Part shown: in pieces, positions 22,545 through 46,780 of the stretch
How positions within the stretch are numbered: position 1 is the first letter of the stretch
Layout of the letters: each line of letters begins with the position of its first letter
Assembly (NCBI GenBank): GCA_905221615.1
Contig: CAJNDT010000310.1
Location: 87,001-151,000, forward strand
DNA: 64,000 nt
Direction of reading: 5' to 3'
Source of the DNA: Symbiodinium sp. CCMP2592
Taxonomy: Eukaryota > Sar > Dinophyceae > Suessiales > Symbiodiniaceae
Program-made: the position numbers and the translations under genes
Notes under the pieces: model-generated
What the model was told of the DNA's origin: nothing
Database searches by the model: none
Seen by the model: only the letters and a program-made list of their open reading frames with translations

Positions 22545-23375
22545 TCAGGCCGTTCCGGCCTCAAAGGTGCCGAAGTACCGGTCGCCGAATTCTCCGAGAC
22601 CAGGCACGATGAACTTGGCCTGGTTCAGATGCGTGTCGAGGCCACAGGTGAGGATGCGCACCCGGGGAGCCTTCTCTGCCATGGCTTTGAGGCCCTCGGG
22701 GCAAGAGACGACATTGATGAAAAGGATGTTCTCCTCCTTGACCCCTGCCTTCTTCAAGACGTCTATGGCCATCAAGCATGACCCGCCGGTTGCCAGCATA
22801 GGATCACAAAGCAGGATCTGCAGCTTCGAGATGTTCTGCGGAAGCTTCGAGTAGTACAGCATCGGGAGGGCCGTCTCCTCATTTCGCTGGATCAGGATCT
22901 TCGCAGTCTTGAGTTCCGGCAGGACACGTCGAACCGCCTCTAGGAGAATGCCACCGGAGCGGACGATGTCCACGGCACAGATCGTGTGCGGATCCGGCGA
23001 CGTGACACCCTGGTATGTGCCGCACGGCGTCTCTATCACCTGTGGCTTGACGCTGGGCAGCCTGGCCACGCCCTCCTCTGCCAGGATGGCCATGAGCCGA
23101 TCCACCGTTCGCACATACTCTGCCTGATCGGTCCGCTTGTCACGGATGACGGTCATGAGCATGTGTATTCCCGGGCTGGAGAGCACCTCCGCCTTGCTGT
23201 TCTCCTTCGGGACGCTCGCGGACAAGCAGAAAGAAGGGCGCTGCTGCATGTAGGTCAAACTTGCGGTAGCGCCAAATGCTGCAGCAGCAGCGAGTCTGCG
23301 GCGGCCTGCAGTGTCAAGCTTGACGGCCACAGGGGCTTTGAAGGATGCGGCCCATAACAGCGCAGTGGCTCGCAT
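22545..23375 (-). CDS. upp: uracil phosphoribosyltransferase (intronless)
   Basis: Converts uracil and PRPP to UMP in pyrimidine salvage. The 276-aa frame begins at a true ATG and has the family landmarks: RDKRTDQAEYVRTVDRL near residue 78, the PRPP-binding loop LCDPMLATGGS near residue 187, and the C-terminal GLGEFGDRYFGT. Bacterial UPRTs are about 208 aa; the extra N-terminal 60 residues are basic and Ala-rich with a hydrophobic stretch (AAAAAFGATASLTY), suggesting a targeting or anchoring presequence. The gene has no introns, unlike its neighbours, and a relict spliced leader lies 43 bp upstream, so it looks like a re-inserted copy of a trans-spliced mRNA. The reading frame is intact and catalytic motifs are conserved, so it is probably functional. 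Confidence 0.93.
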   Translation of the reverse strand: MRATALLWAASFKAPVAVKLDTAGRRRLAAAAAFGATASLTYMQQRPSFCLSASVPKENSKAEVLSSPGIHMLMTVIRDKRTDQAEYVRTVDRLMAILAEEGVARLPSVKPQVIETPCGTYQGVTSPDPHTICAVDIVRSGGILLEAVRRVLPELKTAKILIQRNEETALPMLYYSKLPQNISKLQILLCDPMLATGGSCLMAIDVLKKAGVKEENILFINVVSCPEGLKAMAEKAPRVRILTCGLDTHLNQAKFIVPGLGEFGDRYFGTFEAGTA

Positions 23376-23418
23376 GGCCTTGTATCTGCCCAGGGCCTCA
23401 CGCTTCGATGCAACAATG

Positions 23419-23439
23419 CTTGAACCAAAATGGCTACAA
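23419..23439 (-). promoter_or_regulatory. relict dinoflagellate spliced leader
   Basis: On the minus strand the sequence contains TAGCCATTTTGGTTCAAG. The dinoflagellate spliced leader ends TAGCCATTTTGGCTCAAG, so there is one mismatch over this 18-nt core; the first two of 21 positions also differ. It sits in the 5' UTR of the uracil phosphoribosyltransferase gene, in the same orientation, where a reverse-transcribed trans-spliced mRNA would place it. Confidence 0.85.
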
Positions 23440-24125
23440 GCCGAGACGTTCCACCTCCCTAAAATTTCCCAGCCGCGTGCAGCCGCGCGACCCGTCGTAC
23501 TCTGCTGGCCTGTCTCGACACCCTCCCAGAGTAAGCTCAGAGTGACCTGGGAGCGTCTTGCTAAGGGTGTATCTCAGGTTGAGGCGTTTAGGATTTAGTC
23601 TATAGGTCTGATTTAAGGGTCAAGGGTGTGAGTATTCTAAGGAAAGGTCCAGCGTTTTGGCTTCTGGATCTGCAGTTCTATAGATGTCGGAGAAGGTGGA
23701 AGGTTTCGGATTTCTCTGGACATCCTCACCAAAGCGCCTCTGCACAACGACAACGTCTTCACTGCGCCAACTACCATAGCTGACTTACCGCTCCCAACCC
23801 TGCTTCCCAGATCCCCTCCCCAAGCATGACGAGACCACGGGGTGTCCGATGTGAAACAGTTGTTGGGGGGTCGGAGCATTGTTTTCTGAGGGGGAGGGAA
23901 GTGAGCGGCCGTACTGATCAGGAAACGGCAATAATCGCTTCTTGCCGTCTTGAACTCCTGACCATTCATGTAATGTCAAGAAACAGGTCCGCACTGTGGC
24001 AAAGATTGGCAAAGATGTTGATGCCTTGCTTTCAATGCATTAAATTACAGTGCTTTTGACCGGTTCGCGTGTCGCCAGTTGTCTGTAGCTGACCGGTATT
24101 CTATGAAGCAAACCACATGCAGGAA
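23440..24125. other. spacer between upp and the SMP/C2 gene
   Basis: The stretch should contain the promoter of upp and the 3' end of the SMP/C2 gene. I see no TATA-like or other certain signal and no supportable exon. Confidence 0.4.
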
Positions 24126-31373: not shown

Positions 31374-32600
31374 CTTGCGCGGCTCTGAGGCGGCGTTTCG
31401 ACTTTAGGGCCTTCAGGGCCAGGGCTTATAGGGCTTATTATGGCTCATAGGGTGTATAGGGCTTGTATAGGGCTTAAAGGGTTTAGGGCCTTTAGTGCCT
31501 GAAGGGTCAAGGTCTGAACAGCTGAGGCGCCGGGCACCCAGCCAACCAAACCGGGAGGCCTGGCATAGGTCGGATCGAAAACTGGCTTCGGCTCATGGAC
31601 AAACCCCAGCTGTTTAGGGGTTTGGGGGTTTTAAGGGTTTAGGGTTCAGGGGCTTTGGGTTTAAGGGTTTACGGGTTTAGGGTTTAGCATACCAGCCGTC
31701 GGAAAATGAGATCAAACCATGCACCGCACCGTCATCTTGCACGGAACATCCTGAAACCTGCAATGTACGTTCTTCTTCCTGGAATCCCAAACCTACGTAC
31801 GGACTACCAAATCCAAATCCTGCACACCCTGCCGACTCAAGATCCCAGTCCCAGACGGCCTCGCCCCAGATCCCCGTATTGGGGGCCGAGTCGGGCGCCT
31901 CCTTCGGGCGTTCAGCAGGACTGCTTCGGGCTGATAGGGATTAAGCTTTCGGATTTAGAGCCGCGTTGCGGATTTTAGGCTTGTGGGGCTTGAGGTTTTG
32001 GACCTATCGACCTTCAGAAGTACCCTTCCAACATGGCCAGATGGTCTCGTATGAAACCCAGCACCTTCGCGTCTCAGACCTTTCCGCCGGTACACGAAAC
32101 TACCCGGAAAACCTCCATCCCCTTTACCAACACTTCTTGACCCCAGCCAAACCACTAATCGGAATTCCCTAATACCCTGTTGTACCTCATAGCCTCCGGT
32201 CATGTACGCCTAGATAGACCCAGTCTCAATGAGTATCACCATAACAATAGTAACAACAAGTATAACTAGCACGACTGGCATGAAATACAACGACAACAGC
32301 TATACGTGTGACAAGGATGACAATACTGGATGTGATTAGGACAGTGACAGTGATAATGACATTGATATGGCGTATGATACCTCGTAACAACTAGAGGATA
32401 ACTATTGTTGTTAAGAACAGTAGCTAGATTCATACTGACAACAGCAATAACAGCAGCGGTTGGAATACATGACAGTGAGTGTAATATAGTACGAGTAGCA
32501 ATAACAGCAATGTCAATTGGAAGAATCATACTATAACTAGTGTGACTAACAACAATAATGGCAATAACAAAAACTTGAAAAACAAAGAATAACAACGAAT
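31374..32600. other. region upstream of the SMP exons
   Basis: Telomere-like tracts (about 31420-31500 and 31610-31690) and ATAAC/ATGAC-rich sequence (about 32230-32600). No exon recognised. Confidence 0.5.
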
Positions 32601-32604
32601 ATAG

Positions 32605-32737
32605 TAGTCGTGGTCGTAGTAGTAGTAGTAGTAGCAGTAGGAGTAGTGGTAGTGGTAGTGGTAGTGGTAGTGGTAGTGGTAGTGGTAGTGGTAAGGTAAT
32701 GGTAGTGGCAGTGGTAGTGGTAGTGGTAGTGGTAGTG

Positions 32738-32777
<40 letters not shown>

Positions 32778-32828
32778 CAGGAGTAGTAGCAGGAGGAGGA
32801 GGAGTAGTAGTAGTTGTAGTAGTAGTAA

Positions 32829-32926
<98 letters not shown>

Positions 32927-32952
32927 TATAGTAGTAGTAGCAGCAGCAGCAG

Positions 32953-33032
<80 letters not shown>

Positions 33033-33046
33033 TAGTAGTAGTAATC
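32605..33046. repeat. (AGT)n/(GGT AGT)n triplet array
   Basis: Over 440 bp of TAG/AGT with a GTGGTA subrepeat in the first third. It has the same strand orientation as the 17.9 and 29.3 kb arrays. Confidence 0.96.
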
Positions 33047-33239
33047 GTAGCAACACGAAGAAGAAAAATAGCAGCAACACTACCAAGAAGAGGAATAAAA
33101 AGAGCGGCCCTCCGAGAGAAGCCCTCTTCGGAGGCCTGGCCGAGATGGCCAATCTGCGAGACCTGTCGAAGGAAGCCCGTGGAGAGCCGCTGCGTGTGGG
33201 CCCCGAGGCCAAAGCAGCCTTCACTCTGCTTCGAGGGTG

Positions 33240-33568
33240 TTGGGGCTTGGGCTTTAGGGAGGGTTTGGGGTGCAGGGGTGCATAGGGGCTTCTTAGGGTT
33301 AGGTTAGGGGCCAGGGGGTTTAGGGTTGATGGGCTTGGCTTCAGGGCTTTGGCAGCTTCTTGAGGGTCCAGGGTTGAGGGTTTTGCTTTCGGGTCTTTTT
33401 GGCTCCTTACGGGGTCTGAGTTGAGGGTGTTTCAGGGTCTTATGATTACTCTGCAGCCGGACGGGTTCAAGGTGGAGGGTTCCGTTTTAGGCTGGTAGAC
33501 CCCAAAGCCGGATGTCAAGAGTTTGCAAGCCCCAAACAGATCTTTCAGAAAGTTAAAGGGTTCAGGGT
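33240..33568. repeat. degenerate TTTAGGG/TTCAGGG tract, target of the retrotransposon
   Basis: GGGTTTAGGG and TTCAGGG variants cover this stretch. The retrotransposon is inserted within an AGGGTT of it. Confidence 0.7.
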
Positions 33569-33732
33569 TTTGAAGCAGGAACTGGATTAGTGAGTGTCCA
33601 ACCACACAACGAGCGCACTTTTTGGTCTGAGCCCAAGACGTCTGTCGTACAGGGTGCGTTCAGAACTGTCTCAAAAACTATTCACGCATGAGGACATGTC
33701 AACACGGCGCTTCAAGACAGGGAAATTTCACA
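33569..33732 (-). repeat. 3' LTR
   Basis: Identical copy of the 5' LTR. The AGGGT duplication flanks it at 33564-33568. Confidence 0.95.
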
Positions 33733-33746
33733 CCCGTCTTATCTGT
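33733..33746 (-). other. candidate polypurine tract
   Basis: The sense strand reads AGATAAGACGGG directly against the 3' LTR. It is purine-rich but short and interrupted. Confidence 0.4.
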
Positions 33747-33894
33747 AGTGTGACGTCCGAATCATGCTCGAATTATGACCACTTTGGGTCAAGCCTACTC
33801 CACCGGATTATACCGGGAGCTTGCGCAGTCAACCGAGCCGAGTGCGGCGACTCAAGGCTCCAGGCTGAGTTCTTCGATCGTAAAGCGGAGTGCT

Positions 33895-36759
33895 TTAGGT
33901 ACTCTCGGTATTCTGTGCGGCTTGCGCGGGCACATCGAGCACCTGAACGAGATTGCGATCAATGCTGTGATTGATCAAAAGCGGTTTCATACTCTTGGTC
34001 AAACAATCCGCAAGTTGTAAATGCGTCGGTATCCATCTCAACTCGTCGCCGTAAGGATGGTACAAGGCGTGCGTTAGCTCGTCCTCTTCCCAAAGTCCTT
34101 GGCGGAGTCCAGACATCTCTATGGCAAGGCGTTTATCCTCGCATGATTTTGGAATCGACGCAGTCAAGTGATCCGAAAGGGACCTGCAGTCCGTATACTG
34201 CAGGTGGAACATCGATCTCTTGGCGACTTCTTCCCAGTTCTGTGACCGGGGCAGTTTGCCGAGCAGTTCGAGCACCGCTGCTCGAATACGGTCTCCATGC
34301 TCTATCGCATGTTGCAACGAGTAAGCCTCACACTGGAGTGTGGCGCGACAAACCCGTTTCATGGTGGACGAGGAAAACGAAATGAGGTGCATCTCATGCG
34401 TTGACGCGTTCTTGTCCACCGCCGACTGTGCGGAAGTGAGATAATGGAAACGACCTCTCTGCGACTTATGGTTTGCCTCTCCTGCAAAGGAGGCGTCGCA
34501 AAACGTGACAATCGCCAACTCCCCTGTATTCCAGGGTAACCTAGCGCTGTACGTGATCGGCCTATCCGCATCTCCTAACGCCAGTGCTACTACGCGGTTT
34601 GCTTCACGGAGTGTATCCACCGTGGCTGTCGTAACACGCTGCTGCAGGGCATTCACCCTATAGGCAAGATCAGGTCTCGTGGCACGAGCCACCCAAGCCA
34701 GCGATCCTATGACGGATCTCAGCGCTGTGCGTTGGCCATTCGAGACTGGAGTCGTGCCCTTTTCAGACTTATGAATATCGATCGGGCGAATTGCACGCGT
34801 GTTGTCCCTACAGTTTATACTGATGGTCCCATCGGCGCTTTGCACATACTCGCGTCCGCAGAAACGGAACTTCTCAGTCTCTATGCGACCGATCTTAAAC
34901 TTATCCAGCAGATTCTGGATAGCCGGCTCGCCTTCGGCGGTAGCAGCCCACAGGAAATCATCCACGTGGGTGCACAAGCAAGCACACAAACGACCACCTT
35001 CTCCTGTAATATAGTACAGGGCTGACAGAATTTGCGAGGCATTTAAGCCAAATTCGCGGGCACTCTCCTTTATACGGAGGTAAAGGTTCCGACCCGCGTC
35101 GGTCGTGCCATACACGGGTACTCGGGCAATCATATGCCCGGCTCGCTGAATCTCTGCATCGGGTACACCCTTAGGGTGTTTAGGAACCCGAAGAATGAGA
35201 AGGCGCTCAAGGGGTTTCCCTTGGAAGTATGCGTTCGTTATATCGGCTGCTTTGAGCCGCAGGGCCAATGAAACCGCCCATGAACACAGAAGGGCTATGC
35301 CTTCCGGCTCGGCCGTGGGGCTGTCTGCCCTGATATCCTCCTCATTCGAGATATGCTCGAAGTTTCCACATGCGACCAAGCGTGCTTTCCACTTGGGAGT
35401 GTATGCTGGCGTCCCCTTTAGGTGTTCATTCTTATCGGTGAGGACCCATTTGGTGGGAATGCACACGTGGCCAGCCTTTGTAAGCTCCTTGAACTCCTTG
35501 TCTGTGCAAGGGACCACTGCGTTGAATTCAGTGTACTTCTGCCATTCAGTTTTCATGGCAGCATCCAGTCCCAGCTGTACTTCAACAGGGGCTTTGTGGT
35601 AATCCAGGAGCGAGGCCATGTAGCCAGCATCGACATTAGAGCCGATGGCGTCTTCCCCATCTGGGGTGAGAGCAAAGGCCTTGGATTCCGCCGCTCGACT
35701 ATCCGAGGGCTCAGCTGCTGGCACAGTCGTGCCAATCGCAGCTGTGTGCGATGCTGCTGCCAGTCCGTCGTCTTCCTCAGGAATGTAGTGACACGGATGG
35801 GCTTCTGGCAGTCCGTTAGCACGTATGTGCTCGGCAAGTTTCGAATGCTCGAGCCATATGTGCTGGGCGATATTTCGCCGATGGCATCGCCGCCAACTGG
35901 CCTCCGAACACAACAGAAGTATTCGGTGGAAGTCATCGTGGGCCTCGCTAATTATTCTAGCGATCGTACAGAGCCCTTGGTCTGTTTGCAGATTGGCTTC
36001 AATCCCGCCCCGATTCCTGTTGCCTAACTCGGGGGCGTGACTGTACACAACCCCTTTTGCAAAGCATGTGGCGGAAAGCTCATCACAATTGTATTGTGGA
36101 TGCCGAACGCTGTACGGATGGCTTCTGCAATCTATGATTTCCTTAATCCCGTACTCGTGGATGCGCTCTAGGAACGTCTCGATGGGAAGATCAGAGTGAC
36201 CCATGGTGTATATCCCATCGCCTTTCCTGCCAAAGGTGTTGGGCGCATCCCTATATATGGGGTAGCCTAAGTCCGACAAAAGCTGTATGTCATCTTTAGA
36301 CAACTTGCCGAGATCACTCACCGTGTATGCGGAGAGACTGTATCTTTCTCCTACAAACGGTGCGACCATGTGCACGTCCTTCGGGCGAAACTTAAGAACC
36401 TTGTTCTTAGTATCGTGGACGGTGCCATACATTGTCGTGTTTTGAACACGCACGGGGGTTGTACCCGTGGCTTCTTCCACCCATAGACCGCCTCCACGAT
36501 ACTCGCCCACACCTATAGTGTAGTTATGCGAGCCAGGAGTGTTCGCTAGGTCTCTATGGGCCTCTGCGCCTCTGTTGGTAAGCTGAACGCTACTCCACTG
36601 TGGGAGGTGATGACCGGCTTGCATACTGTGATGCAAGATATAGTGGTTGAGGTACATGGCAAACGACGGTCTCTCGCGCGTTGGTCCAGAAACTCCAACA
36701 AGACCACCGTGCCGATATACTCCCACCGCGAGGGCTATGCATCCCGGGATCTCCATCAT
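33895..36759 (-). CDS. retrotransposon ORF2: 2OG oxygenase-like, DUF488-like, reverse transcriptase and RNase H
   Basis: 954 aa from ATG at 36759, which directly follows an in-frame TAG. Residues 1-150 look like a 2OG-Fe(II) oxygenase jelly roll (H68-x-D70, H130, R139, with GEYRGGGLWVEE). Residues 183-312 look like DUF488 (IYTMGHSD, EIIDCRSHPYS, LLLCSEASWRRCHRR). RT spans about 380-640 with Asp506 (ADITNAYFQG) and HVDDF at 599-603. RNase H has D755, E811, D857 and D918 (THLQLADCLTK). All RT and RNase H catalytic residues are present. It is in the +1 frame relative to ORF1 and overlaps it by 170 nt. Confidence 0.92.
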   Translation of the reverse strand: MMEIPGCIALAVGVYRHGGLVGVSGPTRERPSFAMYLNHYILHHSMQAGHHLPQWSSVQLTNRGAEAHRDLANTPGSHNYTIGVGEYRGGGLWVEEATGTTPVRVQNTTMYGTVHDTKNKVLKFRPKDVHMVAPFVGERYSLSAYTVSDLGKLSKDDIQLLSDLGYPIYRDAPNTFGRKGDGIYTMGHSDLPIETFLERIHEYGIKEIIDCRSHPYSVRHPQYNCDELSATCFAKGVVYSHAPELGNRNRGGIEANLQTDQGLCTIARIISEAHDDFHRILLLCSEASWRRCHRRNIAQHIWLEHSKLAEHIRANGLPEAHPCHYIPEEDDGLAAASHTAAIGTTVPAAEPSDSRAAESKAFALTPDGEDAIGSNVDAGYMASLLDYHKAPVEVQLGLDAAMKTEWQKYTEFNAVVPCTDKEFKELTKAGHVCIPTKWVLTDKNEHLKGTPAYTPKWKARLVACGNFEHISNEEDIRADSPTAEPEGIALLCSWAVSLALRLKAADITNAYFQGKPLERLLILRVPKHPKGVPDAEIQRAGHMIARVPVYGTTDAGRNLYLRIKESAREFGLNASQILSALYYITGEGGRLCACLCTHVDDFLWAATAEGEPAIQNLLDKFKIGRIETEKFRFCGREYVQSADGTISINCRDNTRAIRPIDIHKSEKGTTPVSNGQRTALRSVIGSLAWVARATRPDLAYRVNALQQRVTTATVDTLREANRVVALALGDADRPITYSARLPWNTGELAIVTFCDASFAGEANHKSQRGRFHYLTSAQSAVDKNASTHEMHLISFSSSTMKRVCRATLQCEAYSLQHAIEHGDRIRAAVLELLGKLPRSQNWEEVAKRSMFHLQYTDCRSLSDHLTASIPKSCEDKRLAIEMSGLRQGLWEEDELTHALYHPYGDELRWIPTHLQLADCLTKSMKPLLINHSIDRNLVQVLDVPAQAAQNTEST

Positions 36760-39700
36760 CTAGGAGCGGGCGCGTGTAAGCCTCGCGTCGGTCGCGGTCA
36801 TAGGCACGAAGGAGGGCCAGACACTCATCCGGGGAAAAACCCTGAGTATCTATCAGGCCTTTTGCCATGATCTCTACTTGATCAATCTCTTCCGCAACTA
36901 GTGCATCATCACGGCCTCCTACTGGCGATCGCGACCGGGCGGTTTCGCCCGTCTTATCTTTGGCGCGAAACCTTGCAGGCGTGGATGGCGCTGGCATCGG
37001 TGTGCCGGGCATCATCGCTGGCGTCGATGGTGCTGGCATAGGCACATCGTGCGCGACTGCCGGTGTAAGCGGGGCAGCTGCAGCCACTGGACGTGGCGTC
37101 GCTGGTGCTGTGACCGGGTCTGCTACGCGCTCATCCTGGAACCTTTGTTCCGGTCCATGAACAATGGCTTCCGGAAGCACTGGTTCTCCTGCCAAAACGC
37201 GATGCGCTGCAACTTCAATTTCATCAGCCGGGCGCATCTTCCTAGCGTTCACAAGTACAGGGATATTCTCGTGTAATACCCAGTACGCATTCTCTGCCTC
37301 ACGTCCTATGACGCGGCTAACCGTGGACCACACGACACCTGGGCTGCCAGGGACGTTATCCCGACGGTAAATAACTAAATCACCAACCTTATAGTCAGTG
37401 TCTAGAGGGGCTGCATTACGCTGTAACGCTTTGGCCACTTTGCGGGAAGTCTCTAAGTGAACAAAGGCCTTTTTGGCTTCCTGCCGTGCTCTGTGCCGAA
37501 TGTAGTATACACTCGTCTCATCATACTTGGTGAACAATGTACCAAGGCTTTCGGATTCATCTAGCACTGAACCCGGCGTTCGAGGCTGCTTTCCCAACAC
37601 GTGTTGTGCCGGGCTAAACCCTTGGTGCCTACTAAGCTCGTTCTTAGTAGTAACACTTTCGGTAACGACCGCCTCCATCTCCTCGATATTCGAGGGTTGA
37701 GCCTCCTGCGCGACTTTCCTGATGATGGCCTTAGCAAGTCCACCATGGCGTTCAACCTTTCCAATAGTCTGCGGGCTCTCAAGAGGGGCGTTTTTATGGA
37801 TTATACCATGCTGTGCCAAATACTCTGAAAATTCTCCCCGGAAGTGCGTCCCTCTGTCAGTGGTTATGACTTTGGGATGTCCAGCCCAGCTGACCCACCT
37901 GTCGATCAGGCATTTCACACACTGACGGGCACTTGGGTTACCACCCCCAGATTTCACGAGCACAACTTGCTGGAAGCTTGTTCCCATGTCAACTATATTG
38001 ACAGCAGTATAGCGATTTCCATAGAAGTCTTTGACCTCTAGCGCATCCATACCTATTGTATGGTTGAACTCCTTAGGGAATACACTATCGCCTGCGACAG
38101 GGTGATGCCTGGGCACTGGAGCTGTGTCCAGGCAGACCTTACACTTGTAAAGTCCGGCAGCGGCGATGAAATCCTTGCTCGCCCGGGCCTGCTTCAGGAC
38201 CTGAACCAGGACTGCGTTTGGCAGATGGCCAAACGATCGGTGCAGGCGCCTTATAGCTACCCGGACTCGTTGCGGTAACGATCTCCACGCCGCTCGGCGC
38301 TCTGCCTCTGTATTCGGCGTTCCGGGGAACGGGAATTGTTCCAAAATGAGGCGTTCTCTTTCCTCGGGCGTCAGTGCGCCACCGGCATCATCCACCCCAT
38401 CAGGGGCACCTCGCTGAGGCATCTCAGCATCGGGCACCAGCTCTGCTTCGCTGATGTCCTCAGGATCTGTGTCCTGGGCGTCGCCGACAAAGCAAGTTCG
38501 GCTAAACGCGTTGATATAGTACTCCTCAGAAATGGTACGACAAAGGTTCCAAAAGTCAGTACTATCCGTATCAACATAACTACGGGGTATATACCCGTAA
38601 GACTCTGACCATGCTTGGAAGGAGTCCAAAGCCTTTCCGATCTCTGGGCCTATGCCTGAGATATGCATGTCTCCTCTCAAGGTAACAGTGTCCTCAAGCA
38701 TTGGGTAGCCGTTCGGGGTAACCAATATAACCGGAATGTTGAGGGTGTCAGCTACACACTCAAGCTCCAAACACAACTCCTCTGTGGAAGTCTCAAACCT
38801 GGCAACCACGAGGCCCGGTGGCCCGTTCTGCCTCTCGTTGATCACGCTCGCGAGGACCTGTGCCGAGGGTTCATGCAATCTAATCAGGTGATCAGCTTCT
38901 CGCATGGCAGCGTTGTACACGATTGCCTTTAAGACTTTGTCTCCCGCTACCATTTCGGTAAGGCTTGAGGTGAGGTACTTGGACTGGGCCTTGCTAAGCT
39001 TCTTTAAGCTAGCGGCTGAGGGCCCATAGGCTGCGCTGCTACTGTGGGGCAGGTCTTCGGGAGGATCAGGGCTTGGAAAAGAAATCTGGCTGGCTTGTCC
39101 TACCCACTCCCCACTGCAGACGGCCATGTATGCTTCGCGCTCTGCTCCGTCCTCATCCATGGGTGAAACTTCACCCTCCGGGGCTGTGCCCGGGCCGGCA
39201 GAGGTGGCGATGCGCGAAGCCCGCGGGTCTGTGCCCGGGATGTACACTGCACTCAAGGCATCTGTGTCCTCGATCTGGTGGGGCACTGTGGCCGCGTCGA
39301 ACGCCAAGGGAAACACCCAAAGCGCGACGTACGCCCCATCCTCCGACGGTTCTTGCGTCGGGCATGCTTGCTCGGCTCCACCGGTTTCGGTGGGCAGCTT
39401 CTCGGAGTCTGACCCCGGCGGAAAGCATGCGCCTTCATACGTCCAGCTGGAGCCGTCGGCGGGATCCAGATGGGAAAACAAGTATCCTATGGGATCTATG
39501 TCCCGTAGCTTGCCCGTCGGCTTATACGAACGGCCTGTGTGGCGGGTGACCACTGTGCACTTTATGTTGTGCCGCTCGCTGAGTTCGTGGTGATTTTTAT
39601 CACCAGCCCAGAAACGTCTCGGTGCATATGGACCGATCCAGCACGCTGGCGCCTGCTTCTCGCGCATGACCTCATATAGGTCAGTCAGCACACCATCAGG

Positions 39701-42700
39701 GAAGTCCTGAAACACGATGCGCCTGTTCCACCCGAAACCTGTGTCGGGGCTAAGTGCGATGGCACCAACGTCGATGGCCAGGATCTTCTCGTCGATTTCG
39801 ACGAGCTTGCCTTGCCCTGGGGGCTTCGGAAACTGACGACGGAATTCTGCCCATTCCGCGTCGTTCCACTCGTCCGACGGCCTATCGCCGTGGAAATACC
39901 ACCATGACTCTCTGGCCGTCATGGGGCGGTGAGGATTCTCACGCTCTGGAAACCTATTGTAACCAGCACTGCCTCGGAAGCGCGGTGGCTCCGGCGGCTC
40001 AGGCGGGCGCCTGCTGCCGAGGTTGGTCCTGGGTCCCGGTGGATCCCAGTCTCCCGCACCTGTGCCGTCGTCGTACTCGACCTCATCATACACGCTGTGC
40101 GGTGCCACCTTGCCTTTGCCCTTGCCTTTGTCGGGCTCGACATCCACCTCCGGCCGTGCAGTGGGGCGAGGATTCGTGCGGTCACGCTCGGGAGCTGTGT
40201 CCCGGCCTGCAGCACGAATGCGTTCTGGCTCGGGAACTGTGTCCCGATCCGCACGGTCACCTGGGTCGCGGACGCGACCCCAACGGGAGGTGCGCTGGCG
40301 CGTCGGAGCCTCGGACCTATCCCGAGGTCTGGAGTCCATCCGCCGTCTCTCACGGGTACGGTCACGGCGATGACCCCTGCTCGAGGAGGAACTATCCCTC
40401 CGCCTGCGACGCGATCGGGAGCGGCGAGTAAGCCTCTTGAGCTCCGCCTCGGCCCTATCGGCTCGAGTCTCCGCGTCTTCTGCCCTCTCACGCATGTCCT
40501 GCAGCCGATCATACGCATTATCGCGCTGCCGCTTCACGTTGCTGAGGGCTTCTCTCAAGTCACTTATAGTGCTTTCTTGGCAGCGATTCGCATCAGTGAG
40601 GTCGTGGACCTCAGCCTCGAGCTTGCGAATCCGAGCCGACGACCCTGTCGGCGTCGCTGCGCGGTCCTGTGCTCCACCGGACTTTGCCGGCGGCGGTGCT
40701 GGCGTAGCCTTCGGCCTCTCTATGGGGGCCGCTCCGCCCTTGGCTGACGCACCTACGCTAGAACTAGCAGGGTTAGGACCCGAGCTAAAAGTAACCGAAG
40801 GTAGGCGTCCTCCAGGGGCTGTGCCCTGTGCGCGGTTCATCGCCGCAGTGAGCGAGTTCGGATCGTACTTTGCCACATACGATGTATGTGTCTTGCCGAC
40901 CAGCCCCATGCGTTGTGCAGCCTGATACGCGGTTTCGCCTGCCATGGGAGGCCTATCAAGGGGGCCTACCCCTGTCACCGGTGCCGGTATGCGGCCCTCT
41001 GCAAGCATCTGCGCATGAAACCGCTCAGCATATGTAGGCTGATCATCGGGGCGTGCACACTGCGGCTCCACGACAAGGATGCACTCGTTATCCTCTGGTC
41101 CGTCTGTGCGGACAGCGTCGACGAAGCACCTCGTGAGCTCTTGGACCTCCTGGGCTATGCCAGGGGCGCGGTGCAAACACTTGGGACACTGTCCTTTGCA
41201 CGCCCTGCTGCCCATGAAGGGCCAACTATTCGCTGCACTCATATGAGTGAGGCTGACGGAGCAGTCTGGCACGAGCTCCAAAAGCGTTGCATGGGCAAGG
41301 ATGCCCGCCGCAACAGATCTATGTCTGTTGGCTTTACAAACCACATGCACGGCAATGGACCTGATCCCAGCGTCCTTAGCGTCAAGGACGTTCGCCACGA
41401 TGTGCCTGACGTGGGCGATCAGGTTAGGGTGGTCCGCGTGCTCCCGAATTATATCGGGGTTCGACCCAACATGCTTTGTGCGGTCGCGCTGTTCGTCGTT
41501 GCGCTGTTGGGCTTCTGCTGGCGTCAGATCGTCTTTCCGATCGTCCCTGAGCCACACCATGTCCAACATCACTAGCATATAGCTAGTGGCACTCGCATAC
41601 GTCGTGAGCGCATGCGTTTCCATCTCTTCGTGCTGTGCGAAGAGCTCGGCCGCCGTCCACTTCCCTCTGACGCGTTGCAGCCAGGCATGGTGCTCATAGC
41701 CCCAGGTAAAAACATCAATAATGATGTCCGGGTTCGCTGTGTCCCCCGCATAGAACGGTTGCAAGGCCAAATCCGGATTATACACGGTTGCTGGAAGAGG
41801 AGTGTCGAGCTCCGGACCATGGGGTCCACCACCTGCCATTATAACCAGGGGCCTGTTGTGCGGGTCCTTCTTCACAACCGCATCGAACTCGGCAAGCTCG
41901 CGGTGCCCTCGCGCGATCTCCTTCGGGTGCACTGTGGCACGAGCTGCCGGCGGGTTCCCTGGGCTATCCCCAGGCCTAGCCTTCTCTGTGGGAGGCGCTT
42001 TCTTCGGCAAGCCACTCCCTGGCGGCGCCTTAGGTGCAGGCGCAGAAAAGGCAGGAGTGATCACCGGTGCGGCACTGTGGCCGACCGCAGGCGAGGTCGC
42101 CATGGCACTGTGGCCAGGCTCCGGCGCTGCTGAAATCTTCGGTGCAGCCTTTGCCGTCGGGGGCGCCTTCTTAGGCAGCTGCCCCTCCTCTGCGGCCATC
42201 GCGGCGGGCTCCGTGTCTCCTACGGACGTGCCTACCATACAATGATTCGGGAACGCTACGCTTATACGTCGCTTAGTGTTGTTGCGATTCTCAGCTGTCG
42301 TTGTGAAGCTGTGACCGTGGCCTACGCCTAAAGTGCTATGACCATGGCCTGCATCTACAGTACTGTGACTGCGACTTGTTGCCACTGCGTCATCTGCCGC
42401 TGTTGCATCTCGAGGGGTGCTCACAGACTCTGAGTGAGCTAAGGTGGCGGCGGCGGCAGACCTAAATATAGGAACTGGCGGTGAGGGAATTTGGAAGCTT
42501 CTTATGAGACGGGGTTGTTTCACCTGAACCAAACCTTCTGTTATGTTTATGCATAACAGCCCTGAGTCATGTGTCCGACACAGCTTGATCCTAATGATGC
42601 TATCCTCAGAAGGAAGTCGAACACCACACTCGCCAAACCGAAGATCCTTGGTTATACCAAGTTGGGCCTGGGCGTAAAGGGACAAAAGGAGAGGGGCTGT

Positions 42701-45607
42701 ACCCTTAATCTCGTGAGAATCAAGGACGCCCGGAACTCTCAAGTCCTGCTCCAATCCCATTATAGAGAAAGGTATGGTCCTGCTACCCAGGGTTTCGGTA
42801 GCACCGCTAAGACCCTTGAAGGTACGATTGCCCTCAGGTTTAAACCTCGTGCTGTAACCGAAGTTCGCAAGTTTCCCCGCCGCGTTTGCTATCCAATCGC
42901 TACCGTGAACAGTCGAGTTACAGCCCTCATCCAACACGGCGTATACGTGCTTATCCTCGTAGATATTTACTACGGGCAAATCAACCAAAGCCGGATGGAT
43001 ATCTGTGACCCCCTCAGTGAAAGCCACGAAGGCGTGCCTCGTCGCGGAGGCCCTCGAGGAGCGCGATCTCACCGACGCCACTTCCCAACTGTTGTTGGTC
43101 GATGACGTAGAATGATCATCTAAGGCCTCTTGCAGATATGCGAGAAGGTCACCGCGAGATATCACGGGCTCGGTTACGAAGTGACCCTCTATGGTCTCTT
43201 GAAACTGGGCAATAGCCGGAACTACTACCTCTACGGGGAGGCTATCCCCCGTGCTGCCGACTATGCTGCGCAGAAGATCGAAGTCCAGGGTGTTGGACTC
43301 CCGCAGCACTGTGGCTGCGTCATCCCTAGCCTTTCGCTCGGTCTGCGGCTGCTCATCTAGAAGCATCCCACAAAGCTTGCACTTAATGCGGGAGGTCTTC
43401 CTACTGCTACCCGACCTCTCGGTGGAGGTGTGGGGGCATGTGGCCTGGTCTATGACAGGCTTCTCTTTCTTCGTCTTGGTGACGGTGCCGCATTTCTTAC
43501 AGGTCCGCATGTCTATGTATGCGTTACTCCCCGACTTGTTGAACTCCTTGCAACCTCCCCGGCATTTCCGGGGGCCTTCGCTGGACGAAGCAGCTGACGC
43601 GGCGAGGCGAACCTCGGGCTGAAAGGGTTCAGGCGGGGGCTCCTGGCTGAGAGGGACATCCCTTCTCGTAATGCTAATGGGGTTGTCATCACGCACATCA
43701 AAGTACTCCGTGACCCAATCCAAGAAATCGGCCAAATTTATGGATGGGCACTTCTGCGTGCGTCCCCAAAGAACATATCCAGGAAACGTATACAAGACAC
43801 GCTCATAAGTCAGACCCTTATGCTGACCAAAGGAGAAAACGCGATCGGAACCCTCAGGCGGGCTGTCACGCATGATCCTAGCGGCGGCTGTGCGCCGAAG
43901 CTGCGGTGAGAAGAGGGTTTCATTGCCGCGGCCTTTGCCGGTATTGGTCTTTGAGGGAGTCAGCTCAAGGTTGGCTGGGTAACCCTCGAGCCTACCAGCG
44001 CTCGCATTCGACAGGTGGACACACTCTGTGTCGTCATCCTCCTCCACTGCGGCGAAATACGCCTGGGGCTTCGGCGCCGCCGGCTTTGCGGCTGCGTTGG
44101 CAGTCCCCCCAGACTGTGCTGGGGTTGTGGTACCCTTGGGGCCATTGCCCTTACCGCTAAACTTGCAGGCAGCATCTCCGGCCCAATGGCCGATCACGCC
44201 GCACTTCAGGCACCTACTCTTTGCCTTAAGCTCTGCCAACTTGGCCTTACGATCAGCAATAGTCAAATTGCTACGCACGACCTTCCCTCCGGATTTTCCG
44301 GAGGACTTGCCCTTGTTCTTCCCTTTTCCTTTCCCTTTCGCCTGGGCAAAGGCGGTCTGTGCCGCGTACGCAAGCTGAACTGACTCGGCATAGGAATCAT
44401 CCAAATCGTCAATCTCAGCTTCATATGCCACTGCCGTATAGGCGTTGAGTTGCAATGCTAGGTCTTCATCATCAATCCATTCATCCGCATCATCTCCCCC
44501 AGACGCTGTGGCCTGGTATGCTTCCTCGCCGTAGCCGTCACCGTAGCCTTCCGCGGATTCCTGCTGTTCCTGGTGACCATACTCTGCGGCACTACCATCA
44601 TACCCCATGTAACCAAACTTAGGGTATTGTGGCTTAGCGTCGAAACGTCTCCAGGTCTTACCTGGGCCACTAGGGTCCTTCTGGGTAAGAAGACGTTCCT
44701 TCATGTGCACCACTGAGTGATGCTGAACAAGGACGCGTGCGTACTCATCCACGGTGTGTACGCGGGCGGCGGTCTTGACCATTAGCTGTTCGTTCCTTTC
44801 CAACCCTGAAAGCTCAACAAGGAGGTTAGCCCTCATTGCTTCAGAAAGGCGGATATCAGGATCTAGCTCACGCAAGGTCGACCACCACCGCTTTCGGCGG
44901 GCTATGTAAGACAACATAGGCTCGCCGGGTTGCTTTGCGAGTGGGCCCGTCAGGAGCTGTCCCTGACGGAAAAGTTCGGAAGCCTCTTCAGATTGAAGAG
45001 GGAAAGCTTGCCTCCTGATTTCTTCTATCAGGTAGTCGACGCCATCATGGCGAAGCAGACGTTCCAGGCCGACGTCGCGAGCAATGCAAAAGGCGTCTCC
45101 TCGGAGACCCTCCAAAATCTTGCTAACGCATTCGCTCATATCAAGCGACTCGTCCTTAATGTCTTGCAAGGTGTACACCGCCGGATCTGTGTCCGGCTCC
45201 TGCTCATCGTCGCCCGCCACTTGGCTGGGGTGCGACGGCAACGACTCCGCATCCTCATCTTCTGCCTCGGACGCGGGCTTAGTCCGTTTTGCGCTGGACG
45301 GACTGGCGGGTATACCGCTGCTTCCATCACCATCTGTGGGCGATGCGCTGGTCCCCTGACTTGCCCTGCCACGCCACTTCCTTGGTGACTCGCTCTTGGC
45401 CCTTGCCGACTCGGCAAATCGCAGGTCCTTAAGAGCTTCACGCCGCTGCTTCTCCTTATGTTGCAGCACACGGATCTGTGTCCGGAAGCACCAATCGTGG
45501 AAGCCAGCAGCCGTACCGTCGTATATGTACGAACCGCTTTTCGTTTCTGCAGGGCTCAGGTTCTGTGACCAGAGATTGGGCTGGTAACGCAAACCTGCCA
45601 CGCTCAT
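36590..45607 (-). CDS. retrotransposon ORF1: gag-protease-integrase polyprotein with accessory domains
   Basis: The frame is open from 45673, but the first ATG is at 45607 (3005 aa). Domains by approximate residue: gag-like helical region 1-380; Lys/Gly-rich tract; zinc knuckle CLKCGVIGHWAGDAAC 466-481; Exo-X-C-like FSFGQHKGLTYERVLYTFPG about 588; four-site zinc ribbon about 681-746; protease-like AVLDEGCNSTVHGSDW near 890; Pro/Ala/Lys-rich linker; RapZ-C-like domain about 1247-1475 with CKANRHRS near 1423; coiled coil about 1656-1726; RS-rich stretch to about 1790; two unassigned globular regions; HHCC and integrase about 2450-2650 with D near 2517, D near 2582 and E near 2617; SH3-like C-terminal part near 2740-2800. 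The last 55 residues are overlapped by ORF2 in another frame and are probably not meaningful. Intact, with no internal stop. Confidence 0.93.
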   Translation of the reverse strand: MSVAGLRYQPNLWSQNLSPAETKSGSYIYDGTAAGFHDWCFRTQIRVLQHKEKQRREALKDLRFAESARAKSESPRKWRGRASQGTSASPTDGDGSSGIPASPSSAKRTKPASEAEDEDAESLPSHPSQVAGDDEQEPDTDPAVYTLQDIKDESLDMSECVSKILEGLRGDAFCIARDVGLERLLRHDGVDYLIEEIRRQAFPLQSEEASELFRQGQLLTGPLAKQPGEPMLSYIARRKRWWSTLRELDPDIRLSEAMRANLLVELSGLERNEQLMVKTAARVHTVDEYARVLVQHHSVVHMKERLLTQKDPSGPGKTWRRFDAKPQYPKFGYMGYDGSAAEYGHQEQQESAEGYGDGYGEEAYQATASGGDDADEWIDDEDLALQLNAYTAVAYEAEIDDLDDSYAESVQLAYAAQTAFAQAKGKGKGKNKGKSSGKSGGKVVRSNLTIADRKAKLAELKAKSRCLKCGVIGHWAGDAACKFSGKGNGPKGTTTPAQSGGTANAAAKPAAPKPQAYFAAVEEDDDTECVHLSNASAGRLEGYPANLELTPSKTNTGKGRGNETLFSPQLRRTAAARIMRDSPPEGSDRVFSFGQHKGLTYERVLYTFPGYVLWGRTQKCPSINLADFLDWVTEYFDVRDDNPISITRRDVPLSQEPPPEPFQPEVRLAASAASSSEGPRKCRGGCKEFNKSGSNAYIDMRTCKKCGTVTKTKKEKPVIDQATCPHTSTERSGSSRKTSRIKCKLCGMLLDEQPQTERKARDDAATVLRESNTLDFDLLRSIVGSTGDSLPVEVVVPAIAQFQETIEGHFVTEPVISRGDLLAYLQEALDDHSTSSTNNSWEVASVRSRSSRASATRHAFVAFTEGVTDIHPALVDLPVVNIYEDKHVYAVLDEGCNSTVHGSDWIANAAGKLANFGYSTRFKPEGNRTFKGLSGATETLGSRTIPFSIMGLEQDLRVPGVLDSHEIKGTAPLLLSLYAQAQLGITKDLRFGECGVRLPSEDSIIRIKLCRTHDSGLLCINITEGLVQVKQPRLIRSFQIPSPPVPIFRSAAAATLAHSESVSTPRDATAADDAVATSRSHSTVDAGHGHSTLGVGHGHSFTTTAENRNNTKRRISVAFPNHCMVGTSVGDTEPAAMAAEEGQLPKKAPPTAKAAPKISAAPEPGHSAMATSPAVGHSAAPVITPAFSAPAPKAPPGSGLPKKAPPTEKARPGDSPGNPPAARATVHPKEIARGHRELAEFDAVVKKDPHNRPLVIMAGGGPHGPELDTPLPATVYNPDLALQPFYAGDTANPDIIIDVFTWGYEHHAWLQRVRGKWTAAELFAQHEEMETHALTTYASATSYMLVMLDMVWLRDDRKDDLTPAEAQQRNDEQRDRTKHVGSNPDIIREHADHPNLIAHVRHIVANVLDAKDAGIRSIAVHVVCKANRHRSVAAGILAHATLLELVPDCSVSLTHMSAANSWPFMGSRACKGQCPKCLHRAPGIAQEVQELTRCFVDAVRTDGPEDNECILVVEPQCARPDDQPTYAERFHAQMLAEGRIPAPVTGVGPLDRPPMAGETAYQAAQRMGLVGKTHTSYVAKYDPNSLTAAMNRAQGTAPGGRLPSVTFSSGPNPASSSVGASAKGGAAPIERPKATPAPPPAKSGGAQDRAATPTGSSARIRKLEAEVHDLTDANRCQESTISDLREALSNVKRQRDNAYDRLQDMRERAEDAETRADRAEAELKRLTRRSRSRRRRRDSSSSSRGHRRDRTRERRRMDSRPRDRSEAPTRQRTSRWGRVRDPGDRADRDTVPEPERIRAAGRDTAPERDRTNPRPTARPEVDVEPDKGKGKGKVAPHSVYDEVEYDDGTGAGDWDPPGPRTNLGSRRPPEPPEPPRFRGSAGYNRFPERENPHRPMTARESWWYFHGDRPSDEWNDAEWAEFRRQFPKPPGQGKLVEIDEKILAIDVGAIALSPDTGFGWNRRIVFQDFPDGVLTDLYEVMREKQAPACWIGPYAPRRFWAGDKNHHELSERHNIKCTVVTRHTGRSYKPTGKLRDIDPIGYLFSHLDPADGSSWTYEGACFPPGSDSEKLPTETGGAEQACPTQEPSEDGAYVALWVFPLAFDAATVPHQIEDTDALSAVYIPGTDPRASRIATSAGPGTAPEGEVSPMDEDGAEREAYMAVCSGEWVGQASQISFPSPDPPEDLPHSSSAAYGPSAASLKKLSKAQSKYLTSSLTEMVAGDKVLKAIVYNAAMREADHLIRLHEPSAQVLASVINERQNGPPGLVVARFETSTEELCLELECVADTLNIPVILVTPNGYPMLEDTVTLRGDMHISGIGPEIGKALDSFQAWSESYGYIPRSYVDTDSTDFWNLCRTISEEYYINAFSRTCFVGDAQDTDPEDISEAELVPDAEMPQRGAPDGVDDAGGALTPEERERLILEQFPFPGTPNTEAERRAAWRSLPQRVRVAIRRLHRSFGHLPNAVLVQVLKQARASKDFIAAAGLYKCKVCLDTAPVPRHHPVAGDSVFPKEFNHTIGMDALEVKDFYGNRYTAVNIVDMGTSFQQVVLVKSGGGNPSARQCVKCLIDRWVSWAGHPKVITTDRGTHFRGEFSEYLAQHGIIHKNAPLESPQTIGKVERHGGLAKAIIRKVAQEAQPSNIEEMEAVVTESVTTKNELSRHQGFSPAQHVLGKQPRTPGSVLDESESLGTLFTKYDETSVYYIRHRARQEAKKAFVHLETSRKVAKALQRNAAPLDTDYKVGDLVIYRRDNVPGSPGVVWSTVSRVIGREAENAYWVLHENIPVLVNARKMRPADEIEVAAHRVLAGEPVLPEAIVHGPEQRFQDERVADPVTAPATPRPVAAAAPLTPAVAHDVPMPAPSTPAMMPGTPMPAPSTPARFRAKDKTGETARSRSPVGGRDDALVAEEIDQVEIMAKGLIDTQGFSPDECLALLRAYDRDRREAYTRPLLDDGDPGMHSPRGGSISARWSCWSFWTNARETVVCHVPQPLYLASQYASRSSPPTVE

Positions 45608-45711
45608 GGCTTCAGATAGAAGGGGCCTTTGCGCCGCGACTATCACTACTCTACCCAACGGACCCCGGACCACAGGCTCTACGGGGGTGAAACACTAGTG
45701 GTTGTCCTCAC

Positions 45712-45724
45712 AGCTCCGCTACCA
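45712..45724 (-). other. candidate primer binding site
   Basis: One base inside the 5' LTR the sense strand reads TGGTAGCGGAGC. The first 11 bases differ by one from the complement of the 3' end of eukaryotic initiator tRNA-Met (TGGTAGCAGAG), the usual copia primer. Confidence 0.55.
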
Positions 45725-45725
45725 G

Positions 45726-45889
45726 TTTGAAGCAGGAACTGGATTAGTGAGTGTCCAACCACACAACGAGCGCACTTTTTGGTCTGAGCCCAAGACGTCT
45801 GTCGTACAGGGTGCGTTCAGAACTGTCTCAAAAACTATTCACGCATGAGGACATGTCAACACGGCGCTTCAAGACAGGGAAATTTCACA
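45726..45889 (-). repeat. 5' LTR
   Basis: 164 bp, identical to 33569-33732. In the sense direction it starts TGTGAAATTT and ends CTTCAAA. The expected TG..CA termini fit if the last two A are counted as internal, but the target duplication fits best with the 164-bp limits. Confidence 0.95.
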
Positions 45890-45894
45890 AGGGT

Positions 45895-46780
45895 TAAGAA
45901 GTTTAGAGTTTGGGGGCTTCTACTTTAAAGTTGTTTGGCCCTTTTTCACCTGTTGCTGCTGGCAGCTAACAGACTGCGCATGCCGGAATGGGAGTGTGAG
46001 CCCTTTCGGCCCCCAAGGAACCCTGCCCCCCTGTCACTTCAGCATCCCTGTCAAACCAGTTTCCATCACAGCTGACGACTCTGCGAAGCATGATCACCTT
46101 CTTGATCATCCCGGTGGGGTTTAGGGCTCAGGTTCAGGCATTCGGATACAGGATCGAAGACTTCCTACTTGGCTGATCCTAAATTGCGCAGTCTTCTGTT
46201 TTCCACGATCCACAACCCTCAGTCTGGGTTCTTGTTCAGGAAATTAAAGTTAAGCTACCATAATAAACCGTCTTATTTACTATAGATCCCTATTGTGGTA
46301 GCTTGAATTATTTCACAGGAACCCAGCTTAAAACCCTGACCCTAAACCCCAAACCCCCCAAAACCCTAAACGCCTAAACTTGCCCTAAACCCTGAAAGTG
46401 CACCTGTGGGGAGGCAGCTCCGGCAGGAGCTCCACAGCCACAGCTTCCACGAGTCCGTCCATGAGAGCTCCTGATATAGGGGCCTTATTCATTAGAATAT
46501 GGCTTGCGGGTATACTATAAAGGAACCCAGGCCTTTACAGTGTACTGGGCTTTGAAGAGACCAGGGAGAACAAAGTACGAAAGTATGGTGCCCCAGAACC
46601 CACTATAAAGGATGCAGATGAGATCTTTCTCAAAGGTTTGTCAAGAGAGGTTGGGCAGAGTATAGCAACCTGAAATATGCAACATGTTCCAATCTTGGAT
46701 TAGGGCTTCGGGAGCTCATGGTTGAGGTTTCCACGCAGTCTTGCACATCTGCTTCATTCGGCCTAGTCTAGGGTTCAGGG
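45895..46780. other. spacer beside the retrotransposon
   Basis: No gene seen. Contains a foldback (46252-46304) and a telomere-like tract CCCTAAACCCC (about 46325-46400). Confidence 0.5.
46252..46304. repeat. foldback, 14-bp arms
   Basis: AAGCTACCATAATA (46252-46265) pairs with TATTGTGGTAGCTT (46291-46304), 13 of 14 positions. Confidence 0.5.

Follow-up and report, generated by a model that had tools for sequence, protein, structure and literature searches.

Ty1/copia (Pseudoviridae-type) retrotransposons have long terminal repeats (LTRs), duplicate 5 bp of their target and encode an integrase before an RVT_2-type reverse transcriptase (RT), and their polyproteins are ordinarily about 1,300–1,500 aa long. 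To our knowledge, LTR retrotransposons seldom keep extra enzyme-like domains inside Pol. The window analysed here, a stretch of 64,000 nt from Symbiodinium sp. CCMP2592 (contig CAJNDT010000310.1, positions 87,001–151,000), holds a minus-strand Ty1/copia LTR retrotransposon at 33564–45894. It is alike in LTRs, 5-bp duplication and domain order, but its family differs by a frame of about 3,930 codons with extra domains, among them DUF488. Taken as a whole, the best explanation, which we consider likely, is that the element is one copy from a Ty1/copia family that has been active recently, within a giant copia lineage accreting domains.

Several described elements can be set beside it. Giant 'RE2'-type proteins of Symbiodinium natans and kindred database proteins are its relatives, having in common the backbone and the RapZ-like, ExoX-C-like and zinc-ribbon segments, and some of them carry a module resembling 2-oxoglutarate (2OG)-Fe(II) oxygenases. 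SymbioLINE-Dnmt and SymbioDIRS-Dnmt3 are likewise retroelements of dinoflagellates in which purifying selection maintains a domain gained from elsewhere; they differ in being a long interspersed nuclear element (LINE) and a DIRS element with cytosine methyltransferases, and in the excerpt of that report Copia is stated to be without DNA methyltransferase (PMC5890265). Fungal elements also combine mobility with a 2OG-type dioxygenase, which in our family is oxygenase-like by sequence, but these are DNA transposons, and their enzyme is recognisably of the TET/JBP kind (PMC12730594, excerpt). Among the matches listed from the open-licence literature, titles and abstract beginnings named no retrotransposon with a DUF488, RapZ or 2OG/oxygenase domain, and no dinoflagellate copia with DUF488.

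Structure and copies of the element

The two LTRs of 164 bp, at 33569–33732 (3' LTR) and 45726–45889 (5' LTR), are 100% identical, and the target-site duplication AGGGT of 5 bp lies outside them at 33564–33568 (element 3' end) and 45890–45894 (element 5' end). On the minus strand, the first open reading frame (ORF1, Gag to integrase, 36590–45607) has 3034 codons from stop to stop and 3005 counted from the first ATG. It overlaps ORF2 of 954 codons (33895–36759, minus strand), which comprises the oxygenase-like module, DUF488, RT and a presumed RNase H. Pfam cut-offs were passed in ORF2 by DUF488 (E 3.8e-12) and by the RT at 34660–35634 (RVT_2, PF07727, E 4.3e-12); the Pfam scan of ORF1 gave no match above the cut-off. 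The integrase in ORF1 (37535–38257) had a weak PDB match (E 0.013), and rve was found in 3 of 14 family members. Since the integrase sits in ORF1, ahead of RVT_2 in ORF2, the order is copia-type. Paired LTRs with a short target duplication, and an integrase upstream of an RVT_2-type RT, are the features that place the element in Ty1/copia. The copia-type order, the identical LTRs and the ORFs of 3005 and 954 codons had been noted in a first-pass annotation and were confirmed. That annotation had also called the element intact, which the window copy is not, its frame being split into 3005 and 954 codons.

The window belongs to a genome assembly that totals 1.098 Gb over 5383 contigs, and we searched this assembly. 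The exact LTR end occurred 270 times (control, 0), most listed pairs were about 12.1 kb apart, and the copy number is estimated at roughly 130–165. In a frame survey, 48 copies out of 6693 candidates were scored, the window copy among them, and all 48 matched ORF2 at 99–100% identity. ORF2 of the other 47 copies lay in frames of 1,112–3,939 codons. In 18 of these it formed part of one frame of 3,930–3,939 codons, and in such unbroken copies Gag and Pol form a single polyprotein of about 3,930 codons. None of the other 47 is interrupted at the point where the window copy is, so they do not share the break; the split between ORF1 and ORF2 is a change in the window copy or an assembly error. A two-ORF layout with a programmed frameshift as the family norm is disfavoured by the same 47 copies, and also by 10-kb stretches that were open throughout in 6/6 copies chosen for long frames. 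The LTR was present at 30/30 ORF2 loci (L001, the window copy, to L030). Within L002–L030, two LTR subfamilies were seen, with about 98–100% and 93–95% identity to the window LTR, and the full ORF2 domain set was kept in both.

Extra domains and their conservation

The extra domains sit between the standard ones; in ORF2 they were seen again in the copies examined, and selection maintains them. Among the five accessory motifs that had been proposed, DUF488 (35863–36183) is firm; the domain is otherwise known from bacteria. It scored 47.3 bits against PF04343, for which the curated cut-off is 22.2, and this cut-off was passed without stops by 150/150 scored genome matches (165 candidates). A tblastn search with DUF488 returned 103 plasmid records, with a best E of 1e-13 and 31–34% identity in the 15 rows listed. 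When the window domain was aligned with five bacterial plasmid DUF488 homologues, 16 columns were invariant, including GHS, D-R-P-S, C-E and CHR. In 47/47 copies checked, DUF488 was placed 65–69 nt after the 2OG-like match. Three DUF488 matches, equal in score and lying in frames of 312 codons, had no adjoining 2OG match (G000:C99:25798-26121, C1627:37143-37466 and C1875:18399-18722); at C1627 and C1875 a 2OG match lay about 2.2 kb off on the opposite strand. These three are possibly rearranged copies.

The module preceding DUF488 (36244–36738) carries the signature of 2OG-Fe(II) oxygenases, an HxD...H triad with a 2OG-binding Arg. HxD and Arg were invariant in 10/10 aligned rows and the distal His was present in 9/10, several rows being near-identical and representing about four distinct groups. 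In hhalign comparisons, the module aligned with five PKHD hydroxylases at E 0.0012, with a probability of only 19% and with the distal His and Arg in register; E was 0.016 against YbiX alone, and 0.23 and 0.3 in control alignments. A PHROGs search gave a best E of just 0.3. The module was scored at 150 genome places (4580 candidates), of which 2 had stops and some were partial. It is probably, though unproven, a 2OG oxygenase.

Choosing copies by protein similarity biases selection counts, and we therefore repeated them on copies picked by their LTRs, 19 in all, drawn from those of the 270 LTR places that were listed. This set left out protein-scored copies, single LTRs and most odd-spaced pairs; odd pairs of 16.8 kb and 8.0 kb were included. 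The 2OG-DUF488 region was present in 18 of the 19 (in one only to codon 359), and the 19th, the copy of 8.0 kb, is internally deleted and without the region. No in-frame stops were seen in the gapped alignment. Counting distinct changes in the LTR-picked copies plus the window, DUF488 had 11 nonsynonymous (N) and 61 synonymous (S) changes, a nonsynonymous-to-synonymous polymorphism ratio (pN/pS) of 0.051. The RT part had 12N/76S (0.049), the 2OG-like module 23N/57S (0.125) and the linker 21N/19S (0.37). Thus, the 2OG-like and DUF488 modules are under purifying selection, and DUF488 is as tightly held as RT. The counts from protein-picked copies (2OG-like module 6N/38S, DUF488 7N/35S, linker 8N/19S, RT 4N/62S) were set aside as biased.

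The other accessory segments lie in ORF1, for which changes were counted in 7 copies, the window and six chosen for long frames, over a range outside which the Gag N-terminal codons fall. The RapZ-C-like domain (41150–41767), a CX5RS motif followed by a CX3CX2C cluster, had 10N/32S (0.089). PF22740 was found in 9/14 family members, the window's not among them, at E ≤0.01 (best 5.8e-7; several near-identical), and CxxxRHRSV occurred in 14/20 relatives, the other six being partial, N-truncated or distant. Its identity as RapZ-C is thus supported through relatives only. The ExoX-C-like segment (43625–43849; 0N/8S) aligns in those relatives that span the region, and its assignment is weak. In the zinc-ribbon-like Cys-rich segment (43340–43573; 0N/2S), the Cys are mostly kept in relatives, with P0018 lacking part and P0022 the first Cys.

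In sum, the five non-standard domains of the first-pass annotation fared unevenly in profile and fold searches of each segment. DUF488 was upheld, RapZ-C partly so, and the zinc ribbon stands as a Cys pattern. For the 2OG-like module the searches left conserved residues and a weak profile-profile match, and neither it nor ExoX-C reached profile support over a cut-off.

History, possible roles and target sites

The named relatives belong to Symbiodinium and Cladocopium, in line with a source genome of Symbiodiniaceae type. In a midpoint-rooted RT tree of 17 rows, the eight 2OG-bearing rows formed one clade (100/100) and the window joined P0011, P0013 and P0020 (95/93); outside the 2OG clade most forks had weak support, and the tree includes some very long branches. 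The 2OG-like module was common to P0011–P0017, P0020, P0003 and P0004. It was absent from P0005, P0022–P0025 and P0027, five of which have the RapZ-like motif, P0005 not spanning that region. DUF488 was found in no relative outside the window's genome; its pattern occurred in 1/26 scanned proteins (P0002), with P0006 and P0008–P0010 left out of the scan, and PF04343 was absent from the relatives' precomputed Pfam domains. This absence is provisional, because each protein search scored just a fraction of its roughly 8,000 candidates. Between the end of the 2OG-like module and the RT linker motif there are 213 aa in the window family and 40–52 aa in the five relatives measured, the giant 'RE2'-type proteins being without DUF488 as far as seen. 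Once these spacings and the 65–69 nt in 47/47 copies had been computed, a reading in which some copies lack DUF488 was dropped. Absence from all related copies, which would have counted against the accessory domains, is rejected within this genome, where the modules were seen again in the copies examined; outside it, DUF488 came up in no relative. The simplest reading of these sequences would be a stepwise gain, with RapZ, ExoX and the zinc ribbon first, 2OG in one clade next and DUF488 last; loss of modules in the relatives is a possible alternative. A lineage that seemingly gained several domains in steps is a natural experiment from which their contribution could be learned.

How the domains might serve the element can be outlined from their order. 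The element's own protease would cut the giant polyprotein, and the extra domains would then work in the virus-like particle and the pre-integration complex. Binding or packaging of RNA or complementary DNA (cDNA) may be aided by the RapZ-C, ExoX-C-like and zinc-ribbon segments. The 2OG-like and DUF488 unit may act on nucleic acid or on RT or integrase. Since it immediately precedes RT, it may do so while cDNA is made or integrated. DNA is a natural candidate substrate, and no more than that, because 5-hydroxymethyluracil (5hmU) is abundant in dinoflagellate DNA and, in Breviolum, is enriched for multimapping reads (PMC11071213). The first-pass suggestion that the element modifies nucleic acid or manipulates host signalling is a conjecture. 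A more specific proposal, which we regard as quite improbable, is that a Pol-borne oxygenase modifies the element's own cDNA or the target DNA (e.g., thymine to 5-hydroxymethyluracil) with DUF488 as partner, so that copies resemble host DNA, and that integration is steered to telomere-like repeats. The family suggests what DUF488 might do and connects a mobile element with DNA modification in dinoflagellates in a way that can be tested.

Other explanations differ in where the domains act, or whether they act at all. It is somewhat unlikely that they act on the host rather than on replication of the element, for example through a 2OG/DUF488 unit that counteracts silencing or changes the 5hmU or RNA marks around new insertions. 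Excerpts of three reports speak for such a role: DNA methyltransferases occur in LINE and DIRS elements of dinoflagellates (PMC5890265), TET/JBP dioxygenases are encoded by fungal DNA transposons (PMC12730594), and a Breviolum 5hmU pull-down was about twofold enriched for multimapping reads (PMC11071213). However, the 2OG-like module matches no oxygenase family, and its location in Pol before RT suits a role inside the particle at least equally. Should DUF488 and the 2OG-like module instead be non-enzymatic structural or protein-binding folds that aid polyprotein folding or assembly, which we judge unlikely, one would understand that relative P0004 has Tyr for the distal His, that the window DUF488 is without a loop of about 20 residues found in bacterial relatives, and that the 2OG-like module is less constrained than RT. 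Yet HxD and Arg do not vary in the aligned rows, the distal His is missing from P0004 only, and the 16 invariant columns of DUF488 include its GHS, D-R-P-S, C-E and CHR motifs. That DUF488 joined a single copy by chance, or that one retrotransposon trapped a gene, is barely conceivable: a single capture may have begun the process, and DUF488 was found in no relative outside this genome, but all 150 scored matches pass the cut-off without stops and the region is in 18/19 LTR-picked copies, the 19th being internally deleted. Within this genome, the one-copy fusion is refuted by recurrence and by the fixed 2OG-DUF488 order in 47/47 copies.

The preferred explanation, a recently active giant copia family accreting domains, has itself to be set against a number of results. 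Of the 47 other copies, 29 have shorter frames (1,112–3,741 codons), which means that breaks are frequent in the family. All 18 LTR-picked copies that cover the 2OG-DUF488 region show a one-base difference from the window there, and 6/18 carry further small indels, so some of them are frame-disrupted. The 2OG-like module had no match in the Pfam scan, in a PDB-sequence search or in fold searches (Foldseek, VIA) with its AF2 model, for which the predicted local distance difference test (pLDDT) score was 45. Below their cut-offs lay the window RapZ-C segment (PF22740, 16.4 bits, cut-off 27, E 0.01), with DUF1579 likewise below cut-off beside it (E 0.0046), and the ExoX-C-like segment (PF20600, 13.7 bits, cut-off 26.5, E 0.041). 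The ORF1 counts come from few and chosen copies, and the zinc-ribbon signal amounts to 2 synonymous changes. Selection says that the domains matter, without telling what they do. All these results weigh against the explanation, as does the use of a single 64-kb window and the decay with distance as background for the target sites.

A 5-bp duplication was present in 18/18 LTR-picked copies with both flanks, and many insertion sites were degenerate TTTAGGG/CCCTAAA arrays well inside contigs. Yeast Ty5 likewise inserts at telomeric chromatin. The non-LTR element SART1Bm also inserts at telomere-type repeats (PMC7265360, excerpt), and the excerpt of PMC11453091 gives TTTAGGG as the telomeric repeat in Fugacium and further dinoflagellates. 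On the 3' side, 6/18 LTR-picked copies (P 1e-4) and 15/30 protein-picked copies, window included (P 6e-13), had an exact TTTAGGG-type 7-mer no more than 30 nt away, and on the 5' side 9/19 did (P 5e-8), the one-side background being 72/1582 bins from the 64-kb window. On either side it was found in 10/18, compared with 64/791 background bins of 60 nt (P 3e-7). These P values are too small, because the motifs cluster while bins were treated as independent. The insertions sampled thus favour degenerate TTTAGGG telomere-like repeats, as a partial bias. The integrase, perhaps with an accessory domain, may recognise TTTAGGG-like sites or their chromatin. A fair possibility, though less likely than not, is that insertions merely survive better in repeat arrays poor in genes: telomere-like motifs thin out over hundreds of bases with no stop at the site, and 8/18 copies have no such motif within 30 nt either side. 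But the duplication was ACCCT, AGGGT or AGGGG at 8/19 sites, as if the repeat were cut in a constant phase. The bias provides a separate handle on integrase targeting in unusual chromatin. Telomere-like arrays were also seen beside the window element (33540–33570 and 45890–45940) and in the flanks of L002–L030 and L141–L177.

Remaining features of the element and its surroundings

The following features are on the minus strand. Adjoining the 5' LTR is a putative primer-binding site, CTGGTAGCGGAGC (45713–45725), which we take to resemble the complement of initiator-Met tRNA. A region that is probably Gag-like (44255–45367) is kept in relatives and lies mostly outside the selection count; it is followed by a CCHC zinc knuckle (44165–44212; codons 485–515, 0N/2S in 7 copies). 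The presumed aspartic protease region (42440–43012), with VLDEGCNSTVH, is kept in relatives and had 2N/5S; the Pfam scan gave no match there. The post-RapZ part had 14N/19S (0.25). A long helix in the AF2 prediction and an Arg/Ser-rich low-complexity linker occupy 39785–40654 (disordered linker, 14N/23S, 0.19). Between this linker and the integrase are two unnamed conserved modules without Pfam match: U1 (39185–39772), with a WIGPY motif (4N/14S, 0.09), and U2 (38465–38944), which looks like an alpha/beta domain (5N/9S, 0.16). The integrase had 6N/33S (0.057) over codons 2420–2720. Downstream of RT, the segment 33925–34659, presumably RNase H, had 4N/47S in 30 protein-picked copies.

Adjoining the element at 32266–33431 (minus strand), overlapping open frames of 345 and 301 aa lie in a region of direct repeats spaced at 9 and 12 nt, and a Pfam scan of the first frame gave no match. 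Farther away, at 22545–23573 (minus strand), a 342-aa open frame strongly matched the uracil phosphoribosyltransferase profile (PF14681, E 4.1e-66).

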